64,000 nucleotides of DNA from a virus, in IMG/VR virus record IMGVR_UViG_3300031576_000014, positions 1 to 64,000 of that record, one strand, 5' to 3'. How positions within the stretch are numbered: position 1 is the first letter of the stretch; the number at the start of each line of letters is the position of its first letter. A program made the position numbers and the translations under genes. The notes beneath the pieces were generated by a model, which was given only the letters and a program-made list of their open reading frames with translations, did no database searches and was not told the DNA's origin. Positions 1 through 63,260 of this stretch are shown piece after piece.

Positions 1-168
1 CCGATCGCGAACAAGCTTGCGCACGCGAGAACCAAAGAAATACCGGCTGGAAGGTGGCTTCTCATTTCTCTCCTCCGGGTCCCTGTTGCACGTGTGGATG
101 AACCGATAGTTCCTGCCGCAGTCGCGCGTGCAGCGGCATGCCTCGCAGCGCTTCTTCTGCGTCTTCAT
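1..168 (-). CDS. Small Cys-rich protein, 3'-truncated by window edge
   Basis: The start ATG at 168 overlaps the protease stop codon by 4 nt (ATGA), which supports translation in this frame. The frame stays open for 56 codons to the window edge. The visible part is basic and has clustered cysteines (CEAC then CTRDC, with a later HTC), suggesting a small metal-binding protein. No family is recognised and the C-terminus is outside the window. Confidence 0.6.
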   Translation of the reverse strand, partial: MKTQKKRCEACRCTRDCGRNYRFIHTCNRDPEERNEKPPSSRYFFGSRVRKLVRDR

Positions 169-1013
169 GCCGCGGAGCATTCCACCGCGCAGAAGTCCGC
201 GGCGAAAGGGTCGTTGAGGTACCCCGTCGAGCACCTGTAGAGACCACCCTCACCCCAGGACGTGCCCCAGGAGTTCAGGCAGACGAAAACGAGGCCCGAC
301 GGCGTCGTCGTGTAGCCGAGGATCAGCGTCATGTGCCCGCCAAGCCTGGGCGCGGACCCCGGCGAGTCGAGCACCTCCCCCGCCTTGTAGTCCTCGAACG
401 ACTTCGCGACCTGCGTCCCGAACGGCACCGGATGGTTCTGGGCAAGCTGGTTGCAGACGTCCTCGATCCGCTGCTGGCCCGTCGAGCGGATCTTCGAGAG
501 GAGCGCCACGCGGCCCGCGCTCGCGTTCTGCTGCGCGTCCCAGGGAAGCTCCTCGTTGATCCTCGCCTCGTCGAACGGCCAGACATCCTCGGAGGGGACG
601 CCGAACTGCGAGAGCGCGTGGTAGGCGTCCGCCGGGTAGCTCCCGTCGTCCTGGAGCTTCGACTTCTTGGTCTGCTTCTCAAGCATCCGGGCGAAGGCGT
701 AGACGCCGAGCGGGGAAGGCTCCGGGAGCGTCTTGCCGAGGAAACGCAGCCGGACGTCTACGCCGCTTGCGCACGCGTGCCCGACGCACGAGGAGGTCCC
801 TCCCTGGTCGCGCACCCGGCGCACGAGCCCGACGAGAGAGAGCGCCTCCGTCGGCAGGTTCCGGGGCGCCCCGAAGCGCGCCCTCGCGTTCGCGTAAAGC
901 TGGTCGCGCGGCGCGTCGTCCGCCTTCCAGCCGAAGCGCGTCTTCGGCTGATGCATGGCAGCCGCCGACGACCTCTTCGGCGCCGGGGGCTGATCGCTGT
1001 CGACGTCGGTCAT
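165..1013 (-). CDS. Papain-like (C1A) cysteine protease
   Basis: Predicted cysteine protease of the papain fold, 282 aa. The catalytic set is visible in order: oxyanion Gln70 and nucleophile Cys76 in RDQGGTSSCVGHA, His227 in GGHMTLILGY, and Asn247 in LNSWGTSWGEGG. No hydrophobic signal peptide is visible, and the long N-terminal part (about 60 aa) could be a short pro-region or linker. The ATG at 1013 is chosen because upstream codons run into the palindrome at 1055-1088; an AAGGAAGG lies about 20 nt upstream, so the ribosome site is not ideal. It is the last but one gene visible in a run of small zinc-ribbon genes. Phage papain-like proteins are uncommon; substrate and role (virion maturation, host takeover or lysis) cannot be told from sequence. 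Confidence 0.88.
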   Translation of the reverse strand: MTDVDSDQPPAPKRSSAAAMHQPKTRFGWKADDAPRDQLYANARARFGAPRNLPTEALSLVGLVRRVRDQGGTSSCVGHACASGVDVRLRFLGKTLPEPSPLGVYAFARMLEKQTKKSKLQDDGSYPADAYHALSQFGVPSEDVWPFDEARINEELPWDAQQNASAGRVALLSKIRSTGQQRIEDVCNQLAQNHPVPFGTQVAKSFEDYKAGEVLDSPGSAPRLGGHMTLILGYTTTPSGLVFVCLNSWGTSWGEGGLYRCSTGYLNDPFAADFCAVECSAA

Positions 1014-1054: not shown

Positions 1055-1088
1055 GCGCACCACGTAAACCGCGGTTTACGTGGTGCGC
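1055..1088. repeat. Palindrome copy 1 (34 bp perfect)
   Basis: The shared core CACGTAAACCG plus its reverse complement occupies 1061-1082, and here the symmetry extends six more bases on each side (GCGCAC and GTGCGC). It lies upstream of the protease gene and supplies the TAA stop of the zinc-ribbon gene ending at 1076. Confidence 0.95.
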
Positions 1089-1282: not shown

Positions 1283-1714
1283 CTACTTGCGGAACCCCTT
1301 CTCGCGCGCTGCCCGGGCGATCTGCTCGCGGAACCACTGCGACATCGTCTTGTTCTCCGACGACGCGATACGCAGGAGCAGCGCGTGGTCGCCGCGCGGG
1401 ACCAGGAACCCGACCTGCTGCACGTCCATCACCTCGCCACCGATCTCGACTGGTCTCGTCCTCGACTCTATCCCGTTCGCGCGCGCGCCCTTCGGCGGCG
1501 GGAGCATCTCCCACTTCGCGCCGCACTCGTCGCACTGGAAGACCCCCGTCCTCGTCTCGTCCTCGACGCGCAGGATCGGCCTGTCCGCGTACGGGTTCCC
1601 GGGCTCGTGGACCCGCCCTTTCGTCCTCCTGCGCGTCTGCGTCGAGGCGCACAGCGGGCACTCGCCCCTGCGCGCCCGCGCGTGCGCGACGTCGAGGACG
1701 GTGCCGCCCCTCAT
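1283..1714 (-). CDS. Zinc-ribbon protein of unknown function
   Basis: 143 aa. CPLC and CDEC pairs about 40 residues apart form a predicted zinc ribbon, followed by an alpha-helical C-terminus. The ATG at 1714 overlaps the upstream stop (ATGA), which decides this start over a longer open frame beginning near 1792. Part of a tightly coupled run of five genes reading leftward; no family recognised. Confidence 0.75.
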   Translation of the reverse strand: MRGGTVLDVAHARARRGECPLCASTQTRRRTKGRVHEPGNPYADRPILRVEDETRTGVFQCDECGAKWEMLPPPKGARANGIESRTRPVEIGGEVMDVQQVGFLVPRGDHALLLRIASSENKTMSQWFREQIARAAREKGFRK

Positions 1715-4914: not shown

Positions 4915-4936
4915 CACGTAAACCGCGGTTTACGTG
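4915..4936. repeat. Palindrome copy 2
   Basis: Perfect 22-bp copy, 24 nt upstream of the ATG of the HTH gene and 10 nt past the preceding stop at 4947. The flanking GATCTTGCCGCG also occurs beside the three-operator cassette at 24.25 kb. Confidence 0.95.
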
Positions 4937-5354: not shown

Positions 5355-7298
5355 CTACACCCATTCCTGCGTGGGCTTCACCTTGAAAACGAACGGCTCG
5401 GACTCGAAACGCCGCGGACCCGCGAGCGTGTCGACGGTCCCCTCGAACCGGATCTCCCAGTCTCCCGGGACAGCATAGGTGAACTCGAACGTGTACTTCC
5501 CGAGAGCCGCGCGGACGATCGTCCCGAGCTGCTCGGAGGGGATGCTGTCCTTGCGAGGCGTGCACAGCGTGACGAAGATCTGGTTCGCGTCGGCCGGAAC
5601 GACGGTCACCCCGTCGTCGACGACGACGCTGCACACCGCGAGGACTGGGACAAGCGTGCGGACCATCGTCGGCTCCATGTGGATCGTAGCCCTGACCAGT
5701 GGCAGGACCACCACGATAGTGACCGGGATCCCCGACGTCGGAAGGATCCCGAAGACGAGCGTCAGAAACGTCGCCGGATGATGTGCGACGGGAAGAAAGG
5801 GCCTCACGATGCGGTCCGGGTAATGCGGGAACGGGAACGCCTCCTCGACCGGGGCGACGGGGAAGGGGTAGAGAGCGTGGAACTGCTCAAGCGGCGGGCG
5901 GGACAACGACCGGCGCACCTCGTCGGGGAAGCTCGGGGCCCATGTCAGGGGCGGCAGCGGTGCCTGGAACTCCGGCACCACGAAGAAGCGATGGATGTTC
6001 GCCGGCACGGACGCGCGCTCGACGTGGTCCGGGAACCGTGGCGCCCAGTCAAGCGGGATTGTTTCTTCTGGTTGGGCCGACGTCGCGAACGTCTGGTGCA
6101 AGTTCGCCGGCACGGGTGCCCGAAGAACGCGCTCCGGGTAGTGCGGTTGCCAGTCGAGGGGGGCCGTCTCCTCTGGCTGGACCGGCATCGCGAAGAACGG
6201 ATGGATGGTGGTGGACGGTTTCGCACGTTCGGCTCGGTCGGAGTAGCGCGGATGCCAGTCGAGGGGGACCGTTTCTTCGGGTTGGACCGGTGCCGCGAAA
6301 GCTTGATGAGCCGAGACGGGCGTCTTCGTCCGATCCGCACGATCCGGGTAGTGCGGCTGCCAGTCGAGGGGGATCTTTTCTTCGGGTTGGACGGGCGTTG
6401 CGAAAAACGGTTGAACAGACGCGCGCTGCTTCGCCCGCTCCACGCGGTCCGGGTCCCACGGCTGCCAGTCGAGAGGGATCGTTTCTTCGGGTTGGACCGG
6501 CATCGCATGCGCTTGTTGCAGATGCGCGGGATGCGCCGGTCGATGAACGCTGTTGGGGTAGACGGGAGGCGTGATTTCCGGAACAACAGCCGCGGGGACG
6601 AGGAGCGTCTGAAACAGATGCTGCTGAAGGTGCGTCGGATGCTTCGGCCGCTCGACGCTGTCCGGGTAGTGCGTCTTGGGGAAGAAAGCTTGAGCGAAGT
6701 CGGCCGAGACGACGCGCGTCGCCGTCGTGCCGACGCGCATGTCGACGTCGGCGTTCGTCATGCCTCCCGCACCCGTGCGCTCCCAGGCAAGCTGGACGAA
6801 GATGAACTCGTTCGTGACGGAGAAGGGTCCAGGGTTGAAGGTCGCCGTGCTCGTCTGCTGCGCGCTCGTCGTCAGGTTCGTGACGAGCCCCCCGAGCTGC
6901 TGCGCGTCGGTGATCTCCGTCGCGCCCGACCCGTCCGTGTTCGGCCCGCGGAAGAGCCGGCAGCGCATGCGCCCGTCCTGCGAGCCGCCGTTCGTGACCG
7001 CGATGCAGGCGAAGTTCACGTCCCAGTTCGCGCCGGCGAACTCGCCCGAGTAGCGGTCCGTCGTCCGCAGACAGTCGCCGTCCACCGTGTCGATCGTCCC
7101 GTCGGGCGGCGCCGTGTCGACGAACGTGGCCGCCGCCCTCTCAACCTGCGAGTTGAACGCGGAGTGGTTGATCGCCCCCGTGCCGACGATCCAGCCCGTG
7201 ACCGGCGACGCCGTCGCGTCGCCGCCGGGCGAGGTCTCGCTCATCTCCTGGTGCACGGAGACGAGCGAGTTCGTGGCGAACCAGGTGATCGCCGCCAT
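5355..7298 (-). CDS. Virion protein with about nine 35-aa repeats
   Basis: 647 aa in three parts. Residues 1-205 form a beta-rich domain rich in Thr, Asn and Gly. Residues 211-510 are tandem repeats with the consensus YPDRxERA then FAxPVQPEEtIPLDWQP, about nine units that degenerate at the ends. Residues 511-535 are strongly hydrophobic, followed by a C-terminal beta-sandwich-like domain (about 560-647). Placement beside other structural-looking genes suggests a tail fibre, decoration or adsorption protein. Repeat number may vary between isolates. The actual role is inferred only from composition and position. Confidence 0.75.
   Translation of the reverse strand: MAAITWFATNSLVSVHQEMSETSPGGDATASPVTGWIVGTGAINHSAFNSQVERAAATFVDTAPPDGTIDTVDGDCLRTTDRYSGEFAGANWDVNFACIAVTNGGSQDGRMRCRLFRGPNTDGSGATEITDAQQLGGLVTNLTTSAQQTSTATFNPGPFSVTNEFIFVQLAWERTGAGGMTNADVDMRVGTTATRVVSADFAQAFFPKTHYPDSVERPKHPTHLQQHLFQTLLVPAAVVPEITPPVYPNSVHRPAHPAHLQQAHAMPVQPEETIPLDWQPWDPDRVERAKQRASVQPFFATPVQPEEKIPLDWQPHYPDRADRTKTPVSAHQAFAAPVQPEETVPLDWHPRYSDRAERAKPSTTIHPFFAMPVQPEETAPLDWQPHYPERVLRAPVPANLHQTFATSAQPEETIPLDWAPRFPDHVERASVPANIHRFFVVPEFQAPLPPLTWAPSFPDEVRRSLSRPPLEQFHALYPFPVAPVEEAFPFPHYPDRIVRPFLPVAHHPATFLTLVFGILPTSGIPVTIVVVLPLVRATIHMEPTMVRTLVPVLAVCSVVVDDGVTVVPADANQIFVTLCTPRKDSIPSEQLGTIVRAALGKYTFEFTYAVPGDWEIRFEGTVDTLAGPRRFESEPFVFKVKPTQEWV
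5769..6668 (-). repeat. 105-bp coding tandem repeats
   Basis: Unit starts fall at protein residues 211, 247, 282, 317, 352, 387, 422, 457 and 493, so the period is 35 codons with two 36-codon exceptions. The middle five units are the most alike; the outer ones have lost the PVQPEE-PLDWQP half. Confidence 0.9.
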
Positions 7299-11864: not shown

Positions 11865-11886
11865 CACGTAAACCGCGGTTTACGTG
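11865..11886. repeat. Palindrome copy 3
   Basis: Perfect 22-bp copy. Supplies the TAA stop of the zinc-ribbon gene ending at 11880 and lies 34 nt upstream of the next start at 11831. Confidence 0.95.
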
Positions 11887-17873: not shown

Positions 17874-17895
17874 CACGTAAACCGCGGTTTACGTG
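17874..17895. repeat. Palindrome copy 4
   Basis: Perfect 22-bp copy between the stop of the TerS candidate (17905) and the start of the next gene (17817). Confidence 0.95.
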
Positions 17896-20645: not shown

Positions 20646-20717
20646 CGGGGAGTCTCCTTCGAGGGCTTCGGGTGTCCGCAGGAGCAGGGCTCCTCCGGGC
20701 TGCTATCCCTTATGCTA

Positions 20718-20855
20718 GTGCTATGCCAAGCATGACATAGCACCTAACCCCGCGTTTCCACGTCGACCGTCCAGGATTGCTATGACAAGTATGTCATAGC
20801 AATCCGCCCCTGCCGCGCTTTCTCCCTTCTTTTGCTATGACATTCGTGTCAAAGC
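20718..20855 (-). promoter_or_regulatory. Three-operator cassette I
   Basis: Three inverted repeats: 20718-20743 (degenerate, 8-bp arms), 20774-20805 (perfect 14-bp arms around AGTA) and 20834-20855 (GCTATGACA / TGTCAAAGC around TTCG). The same order and spacing occur at 24.1 and 63.1 kb. Read leftward, the third site includes TTGACA, but no -10 consensus lies 17 nt later. The gap holds no gene. Confidence 0.8.
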
Positions 20856-20873
20856 TATGAACACTTTGCGGCC

Positions 20874-20895
20874 CACGTAAACCGCGGTTTACGTG
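20874..20895. repeat. Palindrome copy 5
   Basis: Perfect 22-bp copy 4 bp past the stop of the DUF932-like gene and 18 bp from operator cassette I, so the two site families are adjacent here only. Confidence 0.95.
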
Positions 20896-24067: not shown

Positions 24068-24085
24068 GCCAGGGAGTAATGCTAA

Positions 24086-24212
24086 TGCTATGCCAACCAT
24101 GACGGAGCACGCAAGTGCCCGCGAACACGCGGCAGTCGTCTAGATGCTATGACATAGGTGTCATAGCTAAGTAGATTCTGCGGCCTTTTAGCTATGACAT
24201 TCGTGTCAAAGC
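24086..24212 (-). promoter_or_regulatory. Three-operator cassette II
   Basis: Inverted repeats at 24086-24109 (degenerate), 24146-24167 (GCTATGACA / TGTCATAGC around TAGG, perfect) and 24191-24212 (one mismatch, spacer TTCG). Lies between divergent genes: leftward start 24067 and rightward start 24214. The flank after the third site (ctttgcatgctctcctgg) is shared with cassette III. Confidence 0.8.
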
Positions 24213-24213
24213 T

Positions 24214-24447
24214 ATGAACACTTTGCATGCTCTCCTGGAGGTGCGCACGATCTTGCCGCGCTGGCCAAGCCGCTTCTCTCGCCTGATGACGTGGACGACT
24301 AAGGACCTCCGCAAGGCGTGCGAGGTGGCCACACCGGGCCGTTCGTGGGCCTTCTGCCCGAAGGCCGAGATGGCCGGATTCCTCGCCGACCGCGACCCCG
24401 ACGTCGTCCGCTTGCGCACGATCTGCCGAGGGAGGAGCCGTGTCTAA
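24214..24447 (+). CDS. Small rightward-transcribed protein (77 aa)
   Basis: One of only two plus-strand genes. Third positions are GC-rich from about codon 25 onward and it ends with its TAA overlapping the dTMP kinase stop from the other strand. ATG 24214 lies directly after operator site 3; ATG 24286 (MTWTTKDLRKACEV) is an alternative. The middle, SWAFCPKAEMAGFLADRDPDVV, looks like a folded helical protein. The first 16 codons have a copy downstream of cassette III. It could be a regulator of the divergent region. Function unknown. Confidence 0.5.
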   Translation: MNTLHALLEVRTILPRWPSRFSRLMTWTTKDLRKACEVATPGRSWAFCPKAEMAGFLADRDPDVVRLRTICRGRSRV

Positions 24448-42353: not shown

Positions 42354-42373
42354 ACGTAAACCGCGGTTTACGT
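42354..42373. repeat. Palindrome copy 6
   Basis: Core of 20 bp is perfect; the outer right base is changed, so one arm ends CGTC. It lies 23 nt upstream of the DNA polymerase start and 12 nt past the preceding stop. Confidence 0.95.
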
Positions 42374-44209: not shown

Positions 44210-44229
44210 ACGTAAACCGCGGTTTACGT
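44210..44229. repeat. Palindrome copy 7
   Basis: Core of 20 bp perfect. Supplies the TAA stop of the 26-aa gene ending at 44224 and lies upstream of the sigma-region-2-like gene. Confidence 0.95.
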
Positions 44230-49656: not shown

Positions 49657-51735
49657 CTATGCCGCCGCCGCGCGCCTCTTGATGTACTCCTTCGCGGGCG
49701 TCCATCCGCCGTCCTCGAAGACGACGACGCGGGGGAACCACGTCTTCAGGTTCTTCAGGTGCTTCGGGAAAACGTGCCTGTCCCAGAGATAGTAAAACCT
49801 CGCGCCTCCCTTGCCCGTCGACGTCCGGCAGAAGCGGCCGCGCACCTGCCGGAAGAGCTGGCGGTTCGCCCCGATCGGCGTCGCGCCGATTCCCGTCCCG
49901 ATCTTCGGGACGTCGATGCCCGTGCCGAACGCCTGGTACGTAGCGGAACCGGCCTTGAGCGTGCCGGCCTTCAGCCCGGACTTCGTCCTCTCGAACTCGA
50001 CGGCGAAGTCCGGGCCGCCGATCAGGTAGCCACAGGGCGTTCCCATCGCGGAGATCGCCTGCCCGAAAGTCATCACGTGCTCGCGGTACTGCGCGAGCAC
50101 GACGACCTGCTCGCCCTCCGCGATCGCCTCCCTGGCGAGCCGGAGCACGAGCCGGTTCCGGTCGTCGTCGCCCATCATCTCGACGAGCAGACGGTGCCTG
50201 TCGACCCCGCGGTCCTCCCCGCCACGTAAACCGCGGTTTACGTCGTCGAAGCCCCCGTTCTCCGCGTCCGGGAGCCCGTACCAGTCCGCGCGGAAGTCCG
50301 TCGGCACGACCCGGACCTCGACGTCGAGGATGTGCCCGCTCTCGACAAGCTCCTTCTCGTCGACCTTCGCGGCCGTCGGACCGAACAGCTCCTTGATCAG
50401 GAACTCCTTCCGGTCCTTGCGACGCACGTCCGCCGTCGCGCCGATCCTGTACCTGGCCGGCAGCGGGTCGATTGCATCGAAGAGCGTCTTGCTTGCGAAG
50501 AGATGGCAGTTGTGAACGAGCACGCCGCCCACGACGAAGACACCACCCTCCGTTTCTAGATTGCAGACCGACGCGATCTCCGCGATGAAGCTTCGATCGA
50601 TCCGCGCTCGGCCACGTCGAAGTCGAACTCCCCCCGGAAGCGGAGCACCAGCCAGCCCTTCGATTCGAGGAAGCAGGTTTTTCGTTCGTCGGCCGCCCCG
50701 CGGCTCTGCGCGATCATCGCCGGCCGTCGGGACCTCCACCGCTGACCCGATGAAAGCGCTGGCGCCCACTTCGCGCGCATCGACGGATCTTTCCAAAGCT
50801 CTTTGAACATGAAGAGGATCACACCAAAGAACGTCATCGCAGCGAACACTTGAGACGCCGACCCATCCTTCACCCTCGACCGCAACCGGATGTTCGTCCG
50901 TCGCTCGCCATCCGGCCAACCGGACAGCCACGACGGCACGGCGTCGAGAAACGACGAGCACCGAACCTCCCGCCGCGACGCGTTCGCCAGGCCGGACCTC
51001 GCCGATCGATTTGAGCGTTCCGTCTTCCATCAGAACAGGCGCTCTCTCTTCAAAACACTCGTCCGCGAAGACCGCCCCGAAGTAGCGCTGGACGCCTGCC
51101 TCGCCCGAGCACTTCGCAAGCGTCTTGCCCATCGCGAGCGTCACGGGCCGCAGTCGCTGCGTCTGCCCCTGCACGACGCCGATCTGGTCCGCCCGCATGC
51201 CGAGCTGCTCGCCGAGCTGCTCCCGCCACTGCCGGAGCAAGGCCGACGCATGCACGACGATGAGCACCGGGCACCGCACGCGCGGGATGAGCGAGATCAA
51301 TGCGCACGTTTTTCCGCTGCCTTGCGGAGCTTCGATCAGGCAGCTCTCGCGCCCGAACGCGAGGTCGGCGAGCCGCGCCTGGTACGGGTAAAGCTCCCAG
51401 GCGTACTCCCCCGGCATGTTCGACTCCGCCGCGTCGACGAACCCTGTGTTCCTCTGGTCGCGGACCGTCCAGTCGATCTGATGCTCGTCGAGCACCTCCC
51501 GCACCTTCGCGATCCCTCCGCGCGGGACGGAGAGGAATCGGTTCTTCCCGTCCTTCTCCTTCCGCCAGGTCACGATCGTTCTCGGCTCGTCCCAAACCGG
51601 GAGCCCGAGCCGGCGCTTCATCGCGTGCTGCGGGTTCTTGTGCTCGAAACGCTCCCGGAGCGCTGCCTGCGCGTTCTCCGGCACGTCGTCGACGCAGAGC
51701 CGCGTCCGCGAGTCGACGACGATCAGGGCTGCCAC
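49657..51735 (-). CDS. DECH-box DNA/RNA helicase with intein
   Basis: Superfamily 2 helicase, 692-aa precursor, 509 aa after splicing. Walker A EAPQGSGKTCA (135-145) and a DECH Walker B formed when residues 225-226 (DE) join 410-411 (CH); C-terminal RecA domain with GATAD and a final QVRGRFCRTSTGK motif VI. The first 100 residues form an extra N-terminal domain. The in-frame palindrome encodes VNRGLRG at 499-505. GTG 51735 follows GAGGAG and a GGCGGCAA motif. Confidence 0.9.
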   Translation of the reverse strand: MAALIVVDSRTRLCVDDVPENAQAALRERFEHKNPQHAMKRRLGLPVWDEPRTIVTWRKEKDGKNRFLSVPRGGIAKVREVLDEHQIDWTVRDQRNTGFVDAAESNMPGEYAWELYPYQARLADLAFGRESCLIEAPQGSGKTCALISLIPRVRCPVLIVVHASALLRQWREQLGEQLGMRADQIGVVQGQTQRLRPVTLAMGKTLAKCSGEAGVQRYFGAVFADECFEERAPVLMEDGTLKSIGEVRPGERVAAGGSVLVVSRRRAVVAVRLAGWRATDEHPVAVEGEGWVGVSSVRCDDVLWCDPLHVQRALERSVDAREVGASAFIGSAVEVPTAGDDRAEPRGGRRTKNLLPRIEGLAGAPLPGGVRLRRGRARIDRSFIAEIASVCNLETEGGVFVVGGVLVHNCHLFASKTLFDAIDPLPARYRIGATADVRRKDRKEFLIKELFGPTAAKVDEKELVESGHILDVEVRVVPTDFRADWYGLPDAENGGFDDVNRGLRGGEDRGVDRHRLLVEMMGDDDRNRLVLRLAREAIAEGEQVVVLAQYREHVMTFGQAISAMGTPCGYLIGGPDFAVEFERTKSGLKAGTLKAGSATYQAFGTGIDVPKIGTGIGATPIGANRQLFRQVRGRFCRTSTGKGGARFYYLWDRHVFPKHLKNLKTWFPRVVVFEDGGWTPAKEYIKRRAAAA
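50224..50243. repeat. Palindrome copy 8, inside helicase coding region
   Basis: Perfect 20-bp core read in frame as VNRGLRG within the helicase C-terminal part, between residue 498 and a Gly/Glu-rich loop. The only copy inside a long conserved gene. Confidence 0.95.
50509..51057 (-). mobile_element. Mini-intein in helicase Walker B
   Basis: 183 codons between Glu226 and Cys410. The N-block begins CFEERAPVLMEDGTLKSIGE, block B is TDEHPV, and the C-block ends CNLETEGGVFVVGGVLVHN with Cys as +1. No LAGLIDADG motif is present in frame; the linker (about 50600-50697) has better coding character in another frame, FLESKGWLVLRFRGEF, like a Vsr/HNH-type endonuclease tail. It may still splice. Confidence 0.88.
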
Positions 51736-57129: not shown

Positions 57130-57287
57130 GGCGATCCTCCTCCCCACGTAAACCGCGGTTTACGTGGGGGAGCCGTGCCGCTGGCCCCGGGATCCTGCCG
57201 GAACAGGACGAAGACCGTGCAGCCGCCTACCGCGTACTCGGCAACCAGCTGGCCGCCCACGTCGCGCACGCGCACCGCCGCGAGCAT
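57120..57287 (-). CDS. Small protein ending in palindrome-coded tail (55 aa)
   Basis: Shares a base with the baseplate J stop (TGATG). MLAAVRVRDVGGQLVAEYAVGG is a beta hairpin, and the palindrome encodes RKPRFTW near the C-terminus. Overlaps the next gene by 10 nt. Function unknown. Confidence 0.55.
   Translation of the reverse strand: MLAAVRVRDVGGQLVAEYAVGGCTVFVLFRQDPGASGTAPPRKPRFTWGGGSPCR
57142..57169. repeat. Palindrome copy 9 (28 bp perfect)
   Basis: Core 57145-57166 extended three bases each side (CCC/GGG). Lies inside the end of the 55-aa gene and 13 nt upstream of the Shine-Dalgarno of the next gene, so an RNA hairpin here could affect its translation. Confidence 0.95.
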
Positions 57288-63045: not shown

Positions 63046-63062
63046 GGCTACCCTTTATGCTA

Positions 63063-63188
63063 ATGCTATGCCAAGTATGTCAGAGCATCTATCAGGGACT
63101 CGCCGGACGGTAGCTATGACATGCATGTCATAGCACTTAGACGAAGGCTTGTTTCGTCGGCCTTTTTGCTATGACATCCGTGTCAAAG
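63063..63188 (-). promoter_or_regulatory. Three-operator cassette III
   Basis: Inverted repeats at 63063-63088 (degenerate), 63113-63134 (GCTATGACA / TGTCATAGC around TGCA, perfect) and 63167-63188 (one mismatch, spacer TCCG). Same order as cassettes I and II. The first site lies 18 bp from the ATG at 63045. The region to 63260 has no further gene. Confidence 0.8.
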
Positions 63189-63260
63189 CTATGATGTCTT
63201 TGCATGCTCTCTTGAAGGTGCGCACAACCTTGCCGCGTAAAGATTGCGCTTTTCACGCTC

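Follow-up and report, generated by a model that had tools for sequence, protein, structure and literature searches.

Why would a phage carry a papain-like protease? The question is raised by a gene at the left edge of a 64-kb stretch of viral DNA (hereafter the window), the first 64 kb of a virus record of 94,582 bp (94.6 kb). A sequence-only reading of the window had recognised such a protease in a phage and had offered a place in the virion, in host takeover or in lysis without choosing among them. The carrier was identified correctly: genes for a terminase, a DNA polymerase, helicases, a baseplate wedge, a portal, a major head protein and a tail sheath were recognised, and the record is that of a myovirus-like phage. 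No close relatives of this phage were found by a single-protein scan or by terminase and endolysin scans, and a scan of a genome collection returned two weak bacterial relatives only. The features on which the analysis centers are as follows, in window coordinates unless given as record coordinates.

1..65, minus strand: 5' end of a Cys-rich, Pro-rich lipoprotein gene (MRSHLPAGISLVLACASLFAIGC...), from the strain-variant overlap, the ORF and homologues
165..1013, minus strand: xylellain-type C1A (papain-family) cysteine peptidase gene, from Pfam, PHROG, a PDB profile search, predicted fold, invariant residues and dN/dS
1060..1083, no strand: perfect palindrome CCACGTAAACCGCGGTTTACGTGG on the upstream side of papain, with a 20-bp core that lies 49 bp from the papain ATG
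1283..1714, minus strand: conserved upstream neighbor of the papain gene, 143 aa, with a 36% identical counterpart at the same place in contig L097
Record 84950-86884 (outside the window): portal gene
Record 91867-92595 (outside the window): GH25 endolysin gene, from Pfam (4.8e-17) and endolysin PHROGs

An intact xylellain-type peptidase

As to family and fold, the window protein is certainly a papain-family protease. Pfam Peptidase_C1 (PF00112), the sole family matched in the Pfam scan, scores 56.2 bits (E=6.5e-15) against a curated cut-off of 20.7, and PHROG 16701 ‘peptidase’ matches at 7e-11; the lysin peptidase families NlpC/P60, CHAP and C39 gave no match in Pfam, PHROGs or NCBIfam. An AlphaFold2 model (pLDDT 87, pTM 0.85), uncertain in the first ~50 residues alone, has an overall fold of the papain type, and the outcome that the sequence-only reading had named as refuting its claim, a fold without the paired Cys-His geometry, was not seen at this level. 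A Foldseek comparison of this model with the PDB returned xylellain (3ois) as the best match (E 2e-16, TM 0.71-0.76), followed by cathepsins. Since a profile of the viral family retrieved 3ois far ahead of the next structure (7.4e-88 versus 6.5e-22), we assign the protein to the xylellain-type short C1A peptidases. All four papain hallmarks noted from the sequence hold up: Gln70 (oxyanion), Cys76, His227 and Asn247 (catalytic) are invariant in an alignment of 47 viral sequences, comprising the window protein and 46 viral relatives, and are present in both strain copies of the gene that the record contains.

The ORF encodes 282 aa from an ATG at 1013, with an alternative, longer GTG start at 1148; the ATG is kept in the strain-variant copy and the internal Met20 is not. 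Inspection of the N-terminus MTDVDSDQPPAPKRSS showed no signal peptide, and the Pfam scan found no I29 propeptide. Between the two strain copies there are 24 synonymous and 13 non-synonymous changes, corresponding to a dN/dS of 0.16 for the whole gene, 0.11 for the catalytic domain and 0.30 for the N-terminus, a substitution pattern indicating that the gene evolves under purifying selection. As support for the reading frame these values are helpful and not decisive, because one of the three antisense frames comes close to them (1.57, 0.22 and 2.30). The window protein is an intact papain-type enzyme; its kind is bacterial and has been described in phages before.

Gene order across the contig ends

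The ends of the contig overlap: record positions 1-1592 match 93085-94582, the last 1498 bases, at 95-97%, as expected for a circular or terminally redundant genome assembled from mixed strains. A second papain gene at 93249-94097 was considered as a paralogue arising from gene duplication and rejected, because it lies in the contig's own ~1.5-kb end overlap and because L097, the closest viral relative found (papain 56% identical), has the gene order once on one contig. The true left neighbors of the papain gene therefore lie outside the window. When transcription is followed across the junction, the order is the 143-aa gene, papain, the lipoprotein gene (124 aa, complete at record 92775-93149, outside the window), a 53-aa ORF, the GH25 endolysin and virion genes. 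The earlier remark that the protease is not next to an obvious capsid cluster holds inside the window, which starts at a contig end; with the ends joined, the GH25 gene is ~0.6 kb and the portal gene ~6 kb away.

L097 confirms this junction independently, since a single contig carries homologues of the 143-aa gene, papain and the lipoprotein (65% identical over the mature part), then GH25 (Pfam 1e-15), homologues of g123, g122, g121 and g120, and the portal. Papain and lipoprotein have been kept together in L097, and the GH25 gene has diverged past tblastn detection. The sole holin-like match of the phage (51926-52306; phrog_1299, weak, E=6e-4) lies 40 kb from papain. A further candidate lysis gene at record 90790-91443, lysozyme-like by eye only and without a Pfam match, was rejected. 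Beside the portal, outside the window, record 83046-84953 combines an intein-like splicing domain (a sub-threshold Pfam match) with a head-protein PHROG match.

The palindrome upstream of papain belongs to a genome-wide set. Its 20-bp perfect core, ACGTAAACCGCGGTTTACGT, occurs in 11 identical copies in the phage genome and in none with 1-4 mismatches, at the following positions.

1062-1081, 4916-4935, 11866-11885, 17875-17894, 20875-20894, 42354-42373, 44210-44229, 50224-50243 and 57146-57165: copies of ACGTAAACCGCGGTTTACGT in the window
Record 76990 and 82528: two further copies

Nearly all copies are intergenic, and most lie 17-120 bp upstream of genes on the minus strand, among them those for papain and DNA polymerase; the palindrome is absent from L097. 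It is probably a regulatory site, resembling an operator or a regulon site of the stoperator type. Other repeats were also observed in the window. Related inverted repeats around GCTATGACAT..GTGTCAAAGCTATGA form three intergenic clusters (20712-20869, 24079-24226 and 63057-63203), and a 647-aa protein (5355-7298) contains a tandem 35-aa repeat (105-nt period) with a consensus like HYPDRVxRxxxPxxxHxxFAxPVQPEETxPLDWQP, for which one sub-threshold Pfam hit was the only family match.

Lysis, entry or takeover

The papain gene adjoins an endolysin gene in an arrangement conserved in relatives. Viral contigs that carry C1A genes yielded 14 endolysin matches (to four Pfam families, which do not include GH19, SLT, GH108 or M15_3). 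Of these, 7 shared the strand of papain and stood no more than 3.5 kb from it, namely on L097, L106, L010, L033, L020, L101 and L067, where random placement predicts 1.16 (P ~2e-5, an approximate value because the threshold was set after the distances had been seen and because L097 is kin of the window phage). The other 7 matches lie away from papain, and most contigs have no detected endolysin of these four families. Related arrangements occur in cultured phages. In Thermoanaerobacterium phage THSA-485A, a C1A gene directly follows GH25; the 753-aa ‘endolysin’ of Alicyclobacillus phage MMB025 is a single protein in which C1A is joined to an Ig-like region, an Rv2525c-type glycosidase and PG_binding_1; and Gordonia phage Cafasso has a C1-type protease (weak match) between its lysin A genes and holin. 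The annotated phage Mufasa8 has a ‘peptidase’ after a holin, but one that lacks a Pfam match.

In a 63-sequence tree, the window protein groups with L097, L106, L010 and L100 (95/89), and three of these relatives have a same-strand endolysin at 0.5 kb (L097), 3.0 kb (L106) and 1.6 kb (L010). Lysis-linked C1A genes occur in several distant branches of this tree, in which deep joins are unsure because several branches are long and the bootstrap is unsettled. An extension of lysis linkage to all phage C1A genes was rejected, since the tree places the virion-linked C1A genes of freshwater phages in a clade of their own (99/100).

The second conserved partner is the Cys-rich lipoprotein, encoded directly downstream of papain in 4 of the 5 members of the supported clade. 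Homologues with the same layout of a signal/lipobox-like start, a Pro-rich stretch and a Cys-rich domain directly follow papain in L097, L010, L098 and L106. Beyond L097 the pairwise similarities are weak (E 0.001 for L010 in a single comparison, 9e-6 for L098 by tblastn), and the L106 protein was matched by eye. Lipoprotein-like genes were found at 6 of 123 positions directly beside papain versus 1 of 337 farther off (P=0.002). The lipoprotein has no Pfam or PHROG match; a family search retrieved L097 alone among viral contigs and nothing in annotated phages, and its AlphaFold model (pLDDT 58) was too poor for a fold search.

Our best-supported reading, to which we give a somewhat better than even chance, is that the papain protein is a holin-released, lipoprotein-paired protease of the lysis stage that acts on envelope proteins. 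Since its gene adjoins lysis genes and the gene of a lipid-anchored protein, it probably helps to break the envelope at the end of infection. Of the three options, lysis is the one that synteny in relatives favors for this clade. We infer activity, timing, holin-dependent release, substrate and the role of the lipoprotein. A soluble, active xylellain-type C1A protease would be made in the host cytoplasm together with late or lysis genes and, having no signal peptide, would be expected to remain in the cell until holin action opens the inner membrane. It would then leave with the GH25 endolysin and might cut envelope proteins (or wall peptide bonds), as the GH25 muramidase cuts glycan. The lipoprotein could serve as its membrane-anchored partner, whether anchor, activator or inhibitor. 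An inhibitor role is worth considering, by analogy only, because on a Priestia megaterium plasmid (L008:1453-2647) the gene right after that of a C1 family peptidase encodes a protease inhibitor of the I42 family.

Descriptions of phage lysis name a holin, a peptidoglycan hydrolase and a spanin. A bolder and rather unlikely version of our reading holds that papain and lipoprotein form a module that disrupts the envelope by proteolysis and assists spanins or takes their place: an outer-membrane lipoprotein would recruit or restrain the holin-freed protease, which would cut outer-membrane or wall-anchoring proteins to finish lysis. Of the o-spanin traits, the lipoprotein has a lipobox-like N-terminus and a Pro-rich stretch; no i-spanin was identified, and the structure model is poor.

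Virion-borne proteases acting at entry are the strongest rival, although we consider this function unlikely for the window protein. The enzyme would sit in the tail or capsid and digest surface proteins or cell wall during adsorption and DNA entry. In freshwater phages, the same domain is fused to structural-looking, tail-like N-terminal regions (L011:7749-8756 and L035:7641-8645) or to a LamG-like one (L029:1622-3205), fusions pointing to virion-displayed versions of C1A, and papain genes there stand beside genes for virion structure (of 145 neighbors, 7 match phrog_8510 and 8 match Laminin_G_3). By eye, a single 1032-aa ORF (L089:6819-9917) joins an apparent MuF-like N-terminal head region, a papain domain and an ADP-ribosyltransferase (ART)-like C-terminus, and is possibly a virion-delivered effector. 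However, these virion-linked genes belong to the separate clade, whereas the window protein is free-standing, with PF00112 as its only Pfam match and no structural domain. In addition, PMC5852040 lists the C1 peptidase of phage XacN1 (ORF382) with lytic enzymes and not among the named virion ones.

Slightly less likely again is a protease that cuts host or defense proteins in the cytoplasm during infection. Its lack of a signal peptide would suit such a role, as would a putative ART-like gene (by eye, without a Pfam match) directly upstream of papain in L010 and Alt-like ARTs in 2 of 145 papain neighbors, and the authors of a jumbo-phage study proposed host-directed peptidases in general (PMC7824862). 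Nevertheless, in this clade papain is accompanied by genes for endolysins and exported lipoproteins rather than by those of early takeover.

It is improbable that the gene is accessory cargo from bacteria, with no fixed role and an accidental position. Short C1A genes are patchy and often horizontally transferred, according to PMC10380794, but a dN/dS of 0.16 with all catalytic residues kept, synteny conserved at 56% identity in L097 and a non-random endolysin linkage argue against this view. A prohead or virion maturation protease is more improbable still: no prohead protease was recognised among the scanned genes, which cover part of the phage, so that a true one may exist, but the papain gene adjoins the endolysin rather than lying between the portal and major head genes, and C1A is not among the known prohead-protease families.

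Relation to known systems

If our reading is true, a recurrent protease beside endolysins, paired with a lipoprotein, would add protein degradation as a step of lysis, define an enzyme-partner pair and give a role to a protease family noted in phages but assigned none. Xylellain-type C1A genes have been acquired by Mimiviridae, Myoviridae and Siphoviridae, as PMC10380794 states. These genes of tailed phages and the XacN1 peptidase are of the same type as the window protein, but the reports on Caudoviricetes C1A peptidases, in the parts available (PMC10380794, PMC5852040), contain neither lipoprotein pairing nor lysis-cassette analysis. In a 2025 survey of viral lytic proteins, the words ‘papain’ and ‘cysteine’ are absent from the text (PMC12596118). 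The literature searched, which covered few subscription papers, contained no report of C1A-lipoprotein pairing or of lysis linkage of C1A; the peptidase itself is of a known kind, and what that literature does not describe is the variant in which it is linked to lysis genes and has a lipoprotein as partner.

Papain-superfamily proteases do occur in phage lysis cassettes, a setting like the lysis-linked one of the window protein: the N5 domain of mycobacteriophage LysA is C39-like (PMC3314691), and gp29 of Gordonia phage BetterKatz is a cysteine protease-like lysin (PMC4982276). The N5 domain, however, is part of lysin A, whereas the window protein matches Peptidase_C1 only and is a separate protein. 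THSA-485A and MMB025 share the lysis link, through a C1A gene directly after GH25 or a fusion to a glycosidase and a PG-binding domain, but no Cys-rich lipoprotein was seen in them and their sequences are very divergent from the window protein. With xylellain (3ois) and the bacterial short C1A peptidases, the window protein shares family, fold and the absence of an I29 propeptide; it differs from xylellain in sequence (~24% identity), in being carried by a phage and in its place in a gene cluster that is linked to lysis and includes a lipoprotein gene.
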